The translations under genes were made by a program, and so were the position numbers. Shown in pieces: positions 23,607 through 37,273 of a stretch of 64,000 nucleotides of DNA. Under the pieces are notes generated by a model. That model was given only the letters and a program-made list of their open reading frames with translations. It was not told the origin of the DNA and ran no database searches. Numbering within the stretch: position 1 is the stretch's first letter; each line of letters begins with the position of its first letter. The stretch comes from Streptomyces sp. NBC_00335 (lineage in GTDB: Bacteria > Actinomycetota > Actinomycetes > Streptomycetales > Streptomycetaceae), in assembly GCF_036127095.1 (NCBI RefSeq), contig NZ_CP108006.1, positions 2,356,001 to 2,420,000 on the forward strand, written 5' to 3'.

Positions 23607-23771
23607 TCGAACGTCTGACACAGGCGCTAGAACGCGGGGACGCGATCCTCGATCACCGCGCGGTCACTACCGCGGGTAACGGGCGGGCGCTGTGAAGAAG
23701 GTGTGGGGGGCCGATGGCGGGAGCGTTTTCCTGCTGTCGGTCCCCCTTTCGCTGCCGTACGGTTTCTGCAG

Positions 23772-24605
23772 ATGAGTGAGACACCCCGCTTCCGGGAAAT
23801 CGGAGGCGACACCAGTACCGGGCTTCCCCAGCGCCGCACTGGGCATGCGTTCGCGCACACTCCTCAGCGATCGGACGGCCGCACGCCCCAAACCCCCCGG
23901 GGCGCCCGGCAACCCGATCCGGCCGGCCGCCCCGGAACCACCCCCCCTGTTCCGGGGCGGCCGGCCACTCTCCTCTACGGCCTGGGCGCACTCTGCGTCA
24001 CGCTCTTCGCCCTGATCACCTGGCAGGTCCTCGTGTCCGGCCCCCTGCTGGTCCCGGACGCCGCCCTCAGCCGGGCCCTCGTGCGCACCGTCCCCGACGC
24101 GGTCACCCAGCGCCTCTCCGACTTCGGCAACGTGCCGGTCGCGGTCCCCGTCCTGCTCCTCGCGGTCCTCTACGCCGTCCGGCGCGGCAACCGCCGGGGC
24201 GCGGCGGCCGCGACGCTGGCCATGGCCCTGGTGCCGGCCCTGGTCGTCCCGCTGAAGGAGTGGACCGGCCGGCCGGGCCCCCTGGAGCCCTGGGCCTCCG
24301 GCTACTACCCCTCGGGCCACACGGCCACCGCGTACGTGGCGTACGTGGGCGCGGCCCTGCTCGTGCGCCCGTACACCCGGGGCCGCTGGCCCCTGCTCCT
24401 CGCGGCCGCCCTCACCGCCCTGACGGCGACGGGGCTGATCCTGCGCGGCTACCACTGGCCCCTGGACGTCCTGGCCAGCCTCCTGATGTGCACGCCGCTG
24501 CTGCTCGCGGTGCGCGCCGCCCGTAACGCGGCGGCGGGGCCGGGGCACGTGCGCCCCGGCCCCGCCGTGTCCGGTGGTGACGGCGCCGGTCAGCCGCCGA
24601 AGTAG
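23772..24605 (+). CDS. PAP2-superfamily membrane phosphatase
   Basis: A 277-residue lipid-phosphatase-like protein with about six membrane segments after a 60-residue polar N-terminus. The three PAP2 motifs are present: KEWTGRPGP (K-x6-RP), YYPSGHTATA (PSGH) and LRGYHWPLDVLAS (R-x5-H-x3-D). It probably dephosphorylates a lipid or prenyl phosphate such as undecaprenyl diphosphate at the outer membrane face. ATG 23772 was chosen: a TACGGT -10-like box at 23758-23763 would start transcription almost at this ATG, so it may be leaderless; a longer reading from 23703 has no support. Its last 16 bases overlap the 3' end of the convergent chitinase gene. Confidence 0.87.
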   Translation: MSETPRFREIGGDTSTGLPQRRTGHAFAHTPQRSDGRTPQTPRGARQPDPAGRPGTTPPVPGRPATLLYGLGALCVTLFALITWQVLVSGPLLVPDAALSRALVRTVPDAVTQRLSDFGNVPVAVPVLLLAVLYAVRRGNRRGAAAATLAMALVPALVVPLKEWTGRPGPLEPWASGYYPSGHTATAYVAYVGAALLVRPYTRGRWPLLLAAALTALTATGLILRGYHWPLDVLASLLMCTPLLLAVRAARNAAAGPGHVRPGPAVSGGDGAGQPPK

Positions 24606-34495: not shown

Positions 34496-34643
34496 TTGAG
34501 TGCCGATCCTGGCAGAGGTACACCCCTCGGCCAAGTGATTCCGTTGTTGCCTTTTGATTACGCGACGGAATCGGTCGACCATGTGTCGAGGCGCGCCCGA
34601 AATCCCGTACGAAGTGTCCGGTGCTCCTGCGAGACTCACATGC

Positions 34644-35195
34644 ATGGAGATGATCGAGGAACTGATCGGGCAGGTCAGCCGGGGTGAGAGGCTGAAGTTC
34701 CTGCCGTTCTGGGGACACCGTCCGCGACCCGACGGCACGCTCGGACCGAGCTGCCTCAGTCAGTGGTGGCCGTCCGAGTTCACCGTGGGTGACGTGCGGT
34801 ACGCGACCGCCGAGCACTGGATGATGGCCGGAAAGGCGCGCCTGTTCGAAGATCCCGAAGCCGAGCGGGCGGCGCTGGAGGCGAAGACTCCGGCCGAGGC
34901 GAAGAAGGCCGGGCGGCTGGTGCGCGGCTTCGACAACGCGGTGTGGGAGCGGGAGCGGTTCGCGCTGGTGGTGGAGGGCAGCGTGCACAAGTTCGGCTCC
35001 GATCCGGCGCTGGCCTCGTACCTGCTCTCGACCGGGAACCGGGTCCTGGTGGAGGCCAGCCCGATGGACCGGATCTGGGGCATAGGGCTGGCCGCCGACG
35101 ACGAGCGCGCGCTGGACCCGGCGCGCTGGCGCGGCCTGAACCTGCTGGGCTTCGCGCTCATGGAGGCGCGCGAGCGGCTGCGGGCGGGGCTTTAA
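34644..35195 (+). CDS. NADAR-domain protein (YbiA-like)
   Basis: A 183-residue NADAR protein. The fold's hallmarks are visible: FLPFWGH near residues 18-24, CLSQWWPSEFTV with the conserved aromatic pair, the helix AEHWMMAGKARLFED, and WERERFALVVEGSVHKFG. NADAR proteins cleave N-glycosidic bonds, including ADP-ribose on guanine and intermediates of riboflavin synthesis; which applies here is unknown. ATG 34644 (MEMIEELIGQVSRGERLKFL) was chosen from family alignment; the upstream residues are not conserved. It ends 41 bp before the first Y-RNA-like unit and may belong to that locus, but that is inference. Confidence 0.87.
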   Translation: MEMIEELIGQVSRGERLKFLPFWGHRPRPDGTLGPSCLSQWWPSEFTVGDVRYATAEHWMMAGKARLFEDPEAERAALEAKTPAEAKKAGRLVRGFDNAVWERERFALVVEGSVHKFGSDPALASYLLSTGNRVLVEASPMDRIWGIGLAADDERALDPARWRGLNLLGFALMEARERLRAGL

Positions 35196-35223: not shown

Positions 35224-35229
35224 TAGCGT
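35224..35229 (+). promoter_or_regulatory. Candidate -10 box for the Y-RNA array
   Basis: TAGCGT lies seven to eight bases before the first paired base of unit 1 (35237), the right distance for a start there. I see no good -35. Confidence 0.45.
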
Positions 35230-35236
35230 GATCCTT

Positions 35237-35370
35237 GTCCAGGTGCGCAGGCGCGACCTACTTCGACTCATAATCGGGCGGCCGCGGGTTCGAGTCCCGT
35301 CACCGGCTTCGGGCCGGTGTAGCTCAGTTGGTAGAGCACCTTGTGGTTTCGCCGACCTCGATCTCTGGAC
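35237..35370 (+). ncRNA. Y-RNA-like unit 1 with permuted tRNA-like module (YrlA type)
   Basis: A bulged stem closes the unit: GTCCAG (35237-35242) pairs with CTGGAC (35365-35370), then GGCG (35250-35253) with CGCC (35350-35353) and ACC with GGT. The 5' strand holds GTGCGCAGGC-N6-TACTTC and the 3' strand GCCGACCTCGATCT. The apex has a tRNA T arm (GCGGG/CCCGT with loop TTCGAGT, 35284-35300), then a closed acceptor stem CACCGGC-TTCGG-GCCGGTG (35301-35319) and a D arm GCTC/GAGC with loop AGTTGGTA (35322-35337). The tRNA order is thus permuted. This matches the known Ro60-binding bacterial Y RNAs that mimic tRNA. The helix joining the two parts is weak here. Confidence 0.85.
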
Positions 35371-35383
35371 ACCCACGTTCGCA

Positions 35384-35452
35384 CCTCCCGGTGCGCAGGC
35401 CACGGCTACTTCTTCCACGAAACAACGCCGCGGCCACTTCTTCCTCGGGAGG
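35384..35452 (+). ncRNA. Y-RNA-like unit 2 without tRNA-like module
   Basis: CCTCCCG (35384-35390) pairs with CGGGAGG (35446-35452). Then comes GTGCGCAGGC-N6-TACTTC in the same spacing as units 1 and 3. GGCC pairs with GGCC (35398-35401 with 35432-35435) and CGGC with GCCG (35403-35406 with 35427-35430) around an A-C mismatch. The apex is a 20-base loop with no T, D or acceptor arm. The 3' strand is GCCACTTCTTCCTCGGG, close to the 3' motif of the others. It may extend outward by a bulged CACG/CGTG pairing. Expression is not shown. Confidence 0.65.
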
Positions 35453-35461
35453 CGCACGTGC

Positions 35462-35598
35462 GGAGTGCCCGGTGCGCAGGCAACGGTTACTTCCGGATCA
35501 ACGTGTCGCGGGTTCGAGTCCCGCCCGGCTCCGGCCGGTAGCTCAGTTGGGTAGAGCAGTCGACACAGTCCGTCGCCGACTTCGATCTCGGGCATTCC
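35462..35598 (+). ncRNA. Y-RNA-like unit 3 with permuted tRNA-like module (YrlA type)
   Basis: A 10-bp closing stem (35462-35471 with 35589-35598, one G-U) shares no sequence with unit 1's, so the pairing is kept while the bases differ. GTGCGCAGGC-N6-TACTTC and GCCGACTTCGATCT repeat exactly. GGC/GCC and ACGG/CCGT form the inner stem with an A-C mismatch as in unit 2. The apex has GTGTC/GACAC as an anticodon-stem equivalent, T arm GCGGG/CCCGC with loop TTCGAGT (35508-35524), closed acceptor CCGGC-TCCG-GCCGG (35525-35538) and D arm GCTC/GAGC (35541-35557). It ends 46 bp before the rsr start. Confidence 0.87.
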
Positions 35599-35611
35599 GC
35601 ACGTCACGCCT

Positions 35612-35638
35612 CCCCCGCTTTCCACTGAATTCGGGGGG
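35612..35638 (+). promoter_or_regulatory. Hairpin covering the rsr ribosome binding site
   Basis: CCCCCG (35612-35617) can pair with CGGGGG (35632-35637). The G run is the only Shine-Dalgarno-like sequence for the rsr ATG at 35645. The hairpin could mask translation or serve as a terminator for the RNA array. Confidence 0.5.
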
Positions 35639-35644
35639 ATTCAC

Positions 35645-37273
35645 ATGGCTCGTTTCAACCTGCTCCGCTCCAAGGCGCCGCCCACCGCACCCGCGGCGTC
35701 CACCGCACCCACCTCACCGGTCCGCTCGACCGGCCGCCGCGCCGCCAACGCGCAGGGCAGCCCCGGCTTCGTCCGCGATCCGCGCTCCGAGCTGTTCCTG
35801 CTCGCCGTCGCCAACTTCGTGACGCAGCAGACCGCCTACGAGTCCGGCGGGGCCCGCGACGACCGGTTCGGCGCGCTCGTGCGCACCCTTGCCGTGGAGG
35901 ATCCCGAGTGGACCGCCGGCCTGCTCGGCTGGCTGCGCCGCGACGGCAACATGCGGACGGCTTCGCTCGTCGGAGCCGCCGAGTACGTCAAGGCGCGGCT
36001 CGACGCCGGAGCGACCGGGGGGCCCTCGAACCGGCAGGTCGTGGACTCCGTACTGCTGCGCGCGGACGAGCCCGGCGAGCTGCTCGCCTACTGGACCGCC
36101 ACGTACGGGCGGGGCGTGCCCAAGCCCGTCAAGCGCGGGATCGCCGACGCGGTGCGCCGCCTCTACTCCGGCAACGCGCTGCTGAAGTACGACACCGCCT
36201 CCCGGGGATACCGCTTCGGCGACGTCCTCAACCTCGTGCACGCCTCCCCCGACCCGGACAAGCCCTGGCAGGGCGAGCTGTTCCGGCACGCCCTCGACCG
36301 CCGGCACAACCCGGAGACCGCCGAGGTCCCGCCGGGCAACCGCACCCTGCTCGCGCACCGGGCCCTGATGGAGCTGCCCGTCGCGGAGCGCCGGGCCGTG
36401 GTCACCGCCCCGGACGGCGCCGAGCGGCTCGCCGCGGCGGGCATGACCTGGGAGGCGTTGGCCGGCTGGCTGCAGGGGCCGATGGACGCGGCCGCCTGGG
36501 AGGCGGTCATCCCGTCCATGGGCGCGATGGCGCTGCTGCGCAACCTGCGCAACTTCGACCAGGCCGGAGTCTCGGACGAGGTCGCCGAGCGGGTCGCGGC
36601 GAAGATCTCCGACCCGGAGACCGTCGCCCGGGCCCGGCAGTTCCCCTTCCGCTACCTGGCCGCCCACCAGCACGCGCCCTCGCTGCGCTGGGCGTACCCG
36701 CTGGAGCGGGCGCTGGGCCACTCCCTGGCCCACGTACCGGCGCTGCCGGGGCGGACGCTGGTCCTGGTGGACCGGTCCGGGTCGATGTGGGCTCCGCTGT
36801 CGGACCGCTCGCAGCTCAACCGGGCCGACGCGGCGGCCGTCTTCGGCACGGCGCTGGCGCTGCGCGCCGAGGACGCGGACCTGGTGCAGTTCGGCTCCAC
36901 GAGCAAGGCGGTCGACTACCGGCGGGGAGAGTCGGTGCTGAAGGTGCTGGAGCGGTTCGAGGACCTCGGCGGCACCTGCACGACCAAGGCGGTGGCCGCG
37001 CACTACGCGGGGCACGACCGGGTCCTGATCGTCACCGACGAGCAGACCACGTACTCCTACGGCGGCGATCCGACGGCCCTGGTGCCGGACACGGTCCCCG
37101 TCTACACCTGGAACCTCGCCGGGTACCGGGTGGGCCACGCGCCCTCCGGGTCCTCGAACCGGCACACCTTCGGCGGGCTCACCGACGCGGCCTTCCGCAT
37201 GGTGTCCCTGATCGAGGACGGCCGGGACGCCAGGTGGCCCTGGGAGACCGGTCGGGCGGACGCGGCCGCCTGA
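35645..37273 (+). CDS. rsr: Ro60 orthologue (TROVE-domain RNA-binding protein)
   Basis: A 542-residue Ro60/Rsr protein that binds Y RNA and misfolded or fragmented RNA and guides exonucleases such as PNPase. The TROVE domain (about residues 45-345) shows its HEAT-like helices, with LRRDGNMRTASLVGAAEYV, LLRNLRNFDQAG and FPFRYLAAHQHAPSLRWA. The C-terminal von Willebrand A-like domain (about 365-520) has a complete metal site: Asp376 in DRSGSMWAPLS, the Thr in GGTCTTKAV and the Asp of VTDEQT. The N-terminus is basic and Pro/Ala-rich. Three Y-RNA-like units precede it on the same strand, which supports a dedicated RNP. Confidence 0.95.
   Translation: MARFNLLRSKAPPTAPAASTAPTSPVRSTGRRAANAQGSPGFVRDPRSELFLLAVANFVTQQTAYESGGARDDRFGALVRTLAVEDPEWTAGLLGWLRRDGNMRTASLVGAAEYVKARLDAGATGGPSNRQVVDSVLLRADEPGELLAYWTATYGRGVPKPVKRGIADAVRRLYSGNALLKYDTASRGYRFGDVLNLVHASPDPDKPWQGELFRHALDRRHNPETAEVPPGNRTLLAHRALMELPVAERRAVVTAPDGAERLAAAGMTWEALAGWLQGPMDAAAWEAVIPSMGAMALLRNLRNFDQAGVSDEVAERVAAKISDPETVARARQFPFRYLAAHQHAPSLRWAYPLERALGHSLAHVPALPGRTLVLVDRSGSMWAPLSDRSQLNRADAAAVFGTALALRAEDADLVQFGSTSKAVDYRRGESVLKVLERFEDLGGTCTTKAVAAHYAGHDRVLIVTDEQTTYSYGGDPTALVPDTVPVYTWNLAGYRVGHAPSGSSNRHTFGGLTDAAFRMVSLIEDGRDARWPWETGRADAAA

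Follow-up and report, generated by a model that had tools for sequence, protein, structure and literature searches.

What is the tRNA-like domain of bacterial Y RNAs for? The locus described here bears on this question. The window, by which we mean the whole 64-kb stretch of DNA that was analysed, comes from a Streptomyces genome of about 9.0 Mb and holds, directly 5' of a Ro60/TROVE gene, three consecutive units on the + strand, here called A, B and C. The units are Y RNAs, a known kind of RNA, and it is very probable that the region as a whole is a Ro60-linked array of Y RNAs with permuted tRNA domains. Three tandem Y-RNA-like units at this place were what the original prediction had proposed, and all three are present, each with its motif and basal stem; the predicted limits, 35237-35598, were close and are corrected here to 35236-35604. 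The array fills the space between a NADAR-domain gene (34554-35195) and the Ro60 gene (rsr, 35645-37273, + strand, 542 aa), which starts 40 nt past the end of unit C. That the downstream gene encodes Ro60 was confirmed by its TROVE domain (PF05731, 57.1 bits, E 2.4e-15) and by TROVE chains in the PDB (E 8e-29), the closest solved chains being those of the TROVE proteins 9kop and 9l5y.

The units are recognised by a repeated motif. Perfect copies of GTGCGCAGGC-N6-TACTTC lie on the + strand at 35243, 35391 and 35472, with the identical spacing that had been claimed, and no further copy was found in the 64-kb window when up to three mismatches were allowed (three copies, as compared to a mean of 0.69 in shuffled sequences; 3 of 100 shuffles reach three). 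The related 3' motif, GCCGACYTCGATCT, is exact in unit A (35351) and unit C (35575) as predicted, but it is degenerate in the unit B of the window, GGCCACTTCTTCCT, where most relatives of unit B have a CTTGATCT-like form. In all three units the 5' and 3' ends are paired in a stem that is followed by a conserved unpaired region, a feature of bacterial Y RNAs. The basal stems are TGTCCAG/CTGGACA in unit A (35236-35242/35365-35371) and CCTCCCG/CGGGAGG in unit B, 7 bp each, and in unit C a stem of 16 bp, including one G-U, between 35456-35471 and 35589-35604. Stems of 6, 7 and 10 bp had been expected, so the pairing was right and the lengths were slightly low. The different stem sequences of the three units had also been interpreted as covariation, which is not correct; they are differences among paralogues, and from species to species the stems at the base of A and B are almost constant. 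ARAGORN found no tRNA in the window.

Real compensatory changes have to be sought between species. The loci compared were the best 80 of 299 confirmed relatives, 79 Streptomyces and one [Kitasatospora] papulosa, and the sample therefore leans to close kin. With the window included, the 81 loci comprise at least 45 complete ABC arrays, 15 BC, 8 AC, 6 AB, 4 A and 3 others; the first figure is a lower bound, since loci filed as AC may hide a diverged B, as was seen in L004. L034, L049 and L064 were counted as ABC. In L034 and L049 this sets aside one spurious extra B each, and in L064 a B row that had been classed with C was left out of the counts of unit C (69 units). The first "B" of L045 is probably a decayed A. 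The alignments contain 63 copies of A, 61 of B (some near-identical or doubtful rows omitted) and the 38 of 69 copies of C that share a common layout. Both sides of the pair have changed in 13 of 37 pairs in unit A (63 cells, 16.6 in shuffles), in 24 of 45 in unit C (159 cells, 51.1 in shuffles) and in 5 of 16 in unit B (17 cells, 6.4 in shuffles, with 1 of 500 shuffles reaching 17), in controls that leave the relatedness among the sequences in place. The covariation sits in the basal stem of unit C and in the inner helices. When the structures were slid along the alignments of the three units, 34-64% of the cells were paired, as compared to 92-96% in place. Counted as further pair types there is no excess in unit B (10, 11.0 in shuffles), and unit A is barely above its controls (25 as compared to 22.8; 38 of 500 shuffles). 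In each unit the inner helix has one pair that is open in most copies (40 of 63 copies of A, 45 of 61 of B and 22 of 38 of C), and the outermost basal pair of unit A is open in 47 of 63. The structures are thus kept in other Streptomyces with compensatory changes in the alignments, as had been anticipated.

The genes around the array are less constant. The NADAR-domain gene, an adenosine deaminase and an aldehyde dehydrogenase were considered as fixed neighbours, and each of them was matched in 18 of the 80 relatives within flanks of up to 3 kb, which means that they are not constant partners of the array; in the window it is the NADAR-domain gene that lies immediately upstream.

To which family do the units belong? 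At gathering scores Rfam had no match at the array. The comparison with the YrlA covariance model that had been suggested came out in part: in a relaxed search YrlA (RF02553) matched unit C with 55.9 bits (E 5e-12) and unit A with 37.4 bits (E 1.1e-6). Neither reached the gathering score, which is 69 bits, and unit B gave no match. No other Y RNA family was among the seven matches of the relaxed search up to E 10. The highest YrlA score among 12 more loci, taken from Streptomyces, other actinomycetes and phages, was 53.9 bits, again short of the gathering score. The units are therefore relatives of YrlA by architecture and position, outside the limits of the curated family. Elsewhere in the window, at 23770-23875, Scr5676 (Streptomyces RNA 5676) matched above its cut-off with 62.9 bits, an ordinary finding.

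As predicted, there are two structural classes. Units A and C contain the circularly permuted domain of the YrlA type, with T arm, acceptor hairpin and D arm, and unit B does not. The D and T loops, the sites of tRNA-type modifications in YrlA, are there in the sequence. In tRNA numbering, the order in A and C is anticodon side, variable loop, T arm, acceptor strand, short loop, acceptor strand, U8-A9 and D arm. YrlA of Salmonella and others is similar in its place beside Ro60/Rsr, in the Ro60-binding stem and in the permuted tRNA-like domain, which corresponds to that of unit C and to the body of unit A. The differences are that unit A adds a complete anticodon arm where the Rfam consensus has a closing helix, that unit C swaps its tRNA type between close species, partly with a long variable arm, and that the units stand in tandem arrays and score below the Rfam cut-off. 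A 2014 study by Chen reportedly placed likely Y RNAs close to Ro60 in over 250 species of bacteria and phages, and in every species one or more of them had a tRNA-like domain; a multi-unit Streptomyces locus may thus already stand in its tables. In the open-licence literature on Ro60, TROVE, Y RNA and permuted tRNA we found no mention of Streptomyces Y RNAs, and the passages found there mention neither an anticodon arm nor a changing triplet or tRNA type in Y RNAs. Provisionally, the anticodon arm of unit A, the type switching of unit C and the arrays of up to five units elsewhere go beyond any description that we found. According to the available part of the source, the Y RNA 6CU1 superposes on tRNAs with circular permutation (PMC11472068). 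Actinobacterial precedents exist in mycobacteria, likened here by description and not by sequence: excerpts mention a Y-like RNA of M. smegmatis (PMC4726728), a predicted yrlA in some mycobacteria (PMC9569102), and TROVE proteins of M. smegmatis and of a mycobacteriophage (PMC8628891). The Deinococcus Y RNA that works with Rsr and PNPase (RYPER) is, in the part of PMC8394870 at hand, similarly a Ro60-bound RNA with a separate effector part.

Unit B (35384-35452, + strand; alignment A2) is a short Y RNA without a tRNA-like domain and without a match in Rfam. Its model, R2, matches unit B in the own genome at E 1.2e-11, and the sole other match there at E <= 0.01 is a weak one on unit C. Unit B would represent the minimal Ro60-binding form. 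It is reminiscent of YrlB of Salmonella, which we take to lack the tRNA-like domain and which is likewise short beside a tRNA-like unit, a likeness of description and not of sequence. In the part of the source available, YrlB is the second Y RNA of the Salmonella operon rsr-yrlBA-rtcBA (PMC7790460).

Unit C (35456-35604, + strand; alignment A3) has a permuted tRNA-like domain with an open anticodon loop, through which the chain exits while the strands 39-43 and 27-31 are paired. The 39-43 strand, at 35498-35502, pairs with 35559-35563; this helix is 95.8% paired in the alignment and has changed on both sides in 4 of 5 pairs, and the copy in the window has one C-A mismatch. The T arm follows at 35508-35524 (100% paired), then the acceptor-like hairpin at 35525-35538, which is 5 bp long here and 7 bp in many relatives, and the D arm at 35541-35557, which is 100% paired and invariant in the 38 sequences. 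When compared with the 61 different tRNA sequences of this genome, both halves of the unit C in the window fit tRNA-Lys(CTT) best, with a joint score of 37 and 33 for the next. In L001 unit C scores 43 for Lys and 33 for the next isotype, and in L014 and L030 it scores 44 for Arg(ACG) and 31 and 27, respectively, for the next. Many copies have no clear pointer to a single isotype.

The tRNA type of unit C changes between species. By the wording of the D arm, 46 of the 69 units are of a standard type, 15 are Leu-like, 7 are fMet-like and 1 is different, and some 10 of the 15 Leu-like units clearly have a long variable arm. At least 14 changes between the standard, fMet-like and Leu-like types are needed on the Ro60 tree, a quick tree with 24 of 78 inner branches starred; if the starred branches alone are trusted, at least 5 changes are needed for the Leu type and at least 4 for the fMet type. 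The labels are overall more clustered on the tree than shuffled ones (21 changes as compared to 32.3), and the fMet label alone is not more clustered than shuffled labels. The changes can be seen in sister or near pairs of different type, with flank and core separated by fixed offsets. L014 and L021 are alike in 35 of 39 columns of the 5' flank and in 57 of 81 columns of the core, and L011 and L015 in 38 of 39 and 47 of 83, whereas the cores of two pairs of the same type are alike in 74 of 80 and 66 of 70 columns. The 3' flanks in the comparison also differ, with 38 of 52 columns alike. Between L014 and L021 the swap is partial, T arm and acceptor being common to both, D arm and variable region different. 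Recombination with the arrays of other species would be the simplest route for such switching, and capture from tRNA genes is possible.

Unit A (35236-35371, + strand; alignment A1) carries a complete circularly permuted tRNA-like domain. From the inner helix (35250-35258/35345-35353) the chain enters an anticodon-like arm at 35262-35278, UUCGA-CUCAUAA-UCGGG, with a 5-bp stem, a 7-nt loop, U33, A38 and the triplet CAU. It continues through a T arm at 35284-35300 (100% of the cells paired in 63 sequences), a 7-bp acceptor-like hairpin with a short loop and no CCA at 35301-35319 (99.8% paired, 4 pairs changed on both sides) and a D arm at 35322-35337 (98.4% paired, no pair changed on both sides). 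The permutation opens unit A between its D stem and its anticodon stem, which means that the complete anticodon arm is displayed. An arm with 5 bp, a 7-nt loop, U33 and A38 is present in 57 of the 63 copies of A and in none of the 69 copies of C, of which 6 reach 4 bp. Its helix is 99.3% paired in the 63 copies of A, with CG/GC and AU/GC exchanges, and the RNAalifold consensus includes 4 of the 5 pairs. Folded as a single sequence, the unit A of the window forms neither the anticodon arm nor the inner helix, and its z-score is -1.22 (25 of 200 shuffles as good), as compared to -2.05 for B and -3.99 for C; the alignments were therefore relied on instead. The idea that the units are clean copies of single tRNAs is true of some C units and untrue of most A units, which have no clear pointer to one isotype.

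The loop of the arm is almost fixed and its triplet is not. A set of 59 arms was selected by three features, U33, A38 and a stem of 4 bp or more; among the 60 A copies with stems of that length, this excluded only L015, which has a loop of 6 nt. C32 is also invariant in this set, the inner three pairs of the stem are CCA/UGG, CGA/UCG or CCG/CGG, and the two outer pairs are almost constantly U-G in Streptomyces. Position 37 is C or G in 13 of the 59 arms. The triplet takes ten forms, CAU (19), CUU (14), GAU (9), GUU (8), UCU (3), CCA (2) and four that occur once, and at least 31 changes are needed on the Ro60 tree, a number that comes from the selected arms and has no shuffled control. In the unfiltered columns, positions 32, 33, 36, 37 and 38 need 1, 0, 4, 10 and 0 changes, and positions 34 and 35 need 19 each, exceeded only by one acceptor-loop column (20) among the columns filled in at least 50 rows.

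Does an enzyme read this triplet? The near-fixed frame and the fast-changing triplet make unit A a direct test of that question. The units may instead be ordinary tethers or gates of the YrlA type, placing Ro60 beside PNPase or a similar exonuclease, with a likeness to tRNA that serves folding, modification and stability only and an arm that has no reader of its triplet. We judge this reading to fall a little short of an even chance. It agrees with the roles of bacterial Y RNAs as far as they are summarised in the accessible text of PMC8394870 and PMC7790460. The arm can also be lost altogether, as in L018, L046 and L074. The pace of change at positions 34 and 35 is similar to that of columns in the acceptor loop, the variable loop and the D loop (20, 18 and 18 changes), so that a plain lack of constraint could explain the change of the triplet. 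But a hairpin that acts as a spacer would not need a near-fixed C32, U33 and A38, nor would it need an exact 7-nt loop on a 5-bp stem, and the same arm geometry recurs in other families and in some phages. Fast change at 34 and 35 can be read as lack of constraint and as selection alike, and the fixed frame of the loop is the stronger fact.

By analogy with YrlA, the tRNA-like domain may bring tRNA-binding enzymes to Ro60 or keep them off. The specific role that we prefer, although we hold it to be less likely than not, is that the tRNA mimics are kept on Ro60 to serve as decoys or sensors, aimed at enzymes whose substrate is the anticodon loop of tRNAs, and anticodon letters that change fast within a complete mock arm may mean that these RNAs serve as tRNA decoys. 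The tRNA-like domain of YrlA has been suggested as a possible competitive inhibitor of an anticodon nuclease, and no fragments of YrlA were detected, according to the available part of PMC7790460. A unit that displays a real anticodon arm fits this idea better than the YrlA consensus does. In the portion of PMC7824862 that is available, anticodon cleavage is treated as a defence, and some jumbo phages have a TROVE protein with a tRNA-like partner. The array offers natural variants: units that have or lack the anticodon arm, units that have or lack the tRNA-like domain, and sister species whose tRNA types differ. Streptomyces are genetically tractable, and their phages contain related RNAs.

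How tightly are the units tied to Ro60? We used 345 genomes of the class, 44 of them with TROVE, and counted those in which the unit A model matched over its full length at E <= 1e-8. These were 39 of the 44 TROVE-positive genomes and none of the 301 others; within the genus they were 17 of 17 with TROVE and none of 16 without. Partial matches, from position 27 to about 104-109 of the model, occur in TROVE-negative genomes too. In four genomes a full-length match lies on another contig or far from TROVE (G101:C5:161567-161701, G291:C4:23292-23423, G330:C7:43549-43688, locus L184, and G182:C1:7011385-7011539), which raises the question whether these four are stand-alone Y RNAs.

The array probably has a single promoter. 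About 7 nt before unit A stands a -10-like box, TAGCGT (35224-35229, + strand), with the consensus C.ccTA..GTgat upstream of the 63 copies of A, a candidate known from its sequence only. A TA..GT box was also observed by eye before B in 13 of 14 rows shown, from the 16 loci where B comes first. The gaps are short, 11-26 nt between A and B and 1-7 nt between B and C, the latter with 9 further nt of the C stem counted in, and together with the one conserved box before A they point to one transcript that needs cutting. From the promoter, A, B and C, perhaps together with the Ro60 leader, would be transcribed as one precursor and then cut into three RNAs. Judging from the known class, each of these probably contacts Ro60 with its basal stem and with the internal loop GGUGCGNAGG/GACYUCGAUCU, which is conserved. 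A possible hairpin, CCCCCG/CGGGGG (35612-35638, + strand), may cover the ribosome-binding site of Ro60, and a similar arrangement of C-rich stretch and GGGGG precedes Ro60 in several of the 10 relatives shown.

The box and the hairpin could also belong to a cis-acting leader of the Ro60 mRNA, in which case the region would serve autoregulation and not give rise to separate RNAs. The inner stem of unit C lies only 39-94 nt from the Ro60 start, on the same strand, and there is just one promoter-like box. This explanation is nevertheless improbable: every unit is closed on itself, the units are lost separately (loci that lack the full set of three have various subsets), and the matches in the four genomes named above are off the contig or far from TROVE. 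A leader and separate RNAs are compatible, and the one does not exclude the other.

That the units are permuted tRNA genes, processed into working tRNAs, is very improbable. tRNA genes with the 3' half before the 5' half are found in red algae and some archaea. The order of the halves is the same here and unit A has a complete set of tRNA arms; an RtcB-family protein is also encoded in the same genome, but about 1.2 Mb from the array. Against working tRNAs, the acceptor strands are joined by a few nucleotides, with neither a discriminator nor a CCA in the sequence, and a stem of the Ro60 type is attached. Furthermore, unit C has no closed anticodon loop, unit B lacks any tRNA part, relatives differ freely in the triplet, and the genome has a normal tRNA set. 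Decayed tRNA genes or chance resemblance could be suspected because of a partial match of the unit A model, limited to its positions 27-104, at the place where two tandem tRNAs of the own genome adjoin (5860015-5860092). In our reading they are refuted by the compensatory changes, by full-length matches found only in TROVE genomes and by the exact repeats of the motif, and have practically no probability left.

We return to the Ro60-linked array, which extends beyond the genus. Arms and units were read in 19 loci outside Streptomyces, two further Streptomyces loci not being among them. At least one anticodon-like arm (4-5 bp, U33, A38) was found in 12 of the 19, in the families f14, f17 and f18, and none in 7, among them four loci of f19. 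Examples are L175, with UUCCU-CUCUCAA-AGGAG and a D arm like that of tRNA-Glu, and L181 (G013), with UUCGA-CUGCGGA-UCGAA, which is fully Watson-Crick. The Y RNA of L181 (minus strand, 1350-1750) lies, as judged by eye, inside an apparent bacterial tRNA-gene cluster about 3 kb from TROVE. The largest arrays, of five units, are those of L172 and L174, and arrays of four were read in L170, L171, L173, L176 and L209; all of these loci are in f17 except L209 (f18). By eye, three of the four units of L173 (minus strand, 1300-2250) have no T loop, and two of these have a long GC-rich hairpin instead, a third structural class. A reduced tRNA-like form, with the T loop 8 nt after TACTTC and no anticodon arm, was observed as the fourth unit of L174 and L172 and as the third unit of L170, L171 and L209.

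Phages have such arrays as well. A relative of Ro60 was found in 83 of 50,697 phage records, and in all nine phages fetched the unit A model has one or more full-length matches at E <= 0.05; even the weakest of the nine best matches reached 2.7e-7. When seven of them were scanned for the motif, three had five units, two had four and two had three, and an anticodon-like arm was present in three of the seven, once with 5 bp and twice with 4 bp. The arm of Gordonia phage VanLee reads UUCGC-CUUCUAA-GCGGG. It is conceivable, and as a whole rather unlikely, that Ro60 in actinomycetes and in their phages is loaded with a variable collection of between one and five Y RNAs, mostly permuted tRNA mimics, in which tRNA type and anticodon are swapped rapidly in a frozen loop frame while the Ro60 stem stays constant, as a repertoire of decoys or sensors against anticodon nucleases. 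On this speculative reading the tRNA types that are swapped would be Lys, Arg, fMet, Leu, Glu and others. The conflict behind the repertoire might, just as doubtfully, be one with toxins, phage defence or developmental tRNA cleavage.

The Ro60 gene is located inside a tRNA cluster in five of the nine phages. In VanLee, an annotated tRNA-Arg(tct) (L224, 2141-2212) coincides with a unit at 2140-2277, and some tRNA annotations in phages may accordingly be Y RNAs. Annotations that overlap matches to the unit A model were also observed in LuckySocke (L221, 2218-2363, tRNA-Ser(gct)) and GiJojo (L229, 2189-2335, tRNA-Arg(cct)). In the phage tRNA clusters beside Ro60, matches to manA-RNA were seen at 4528-4691 of L223 (49.7) and 4416-4648 of L221 (47.8), just under the Rfam cut-off of 55.2.
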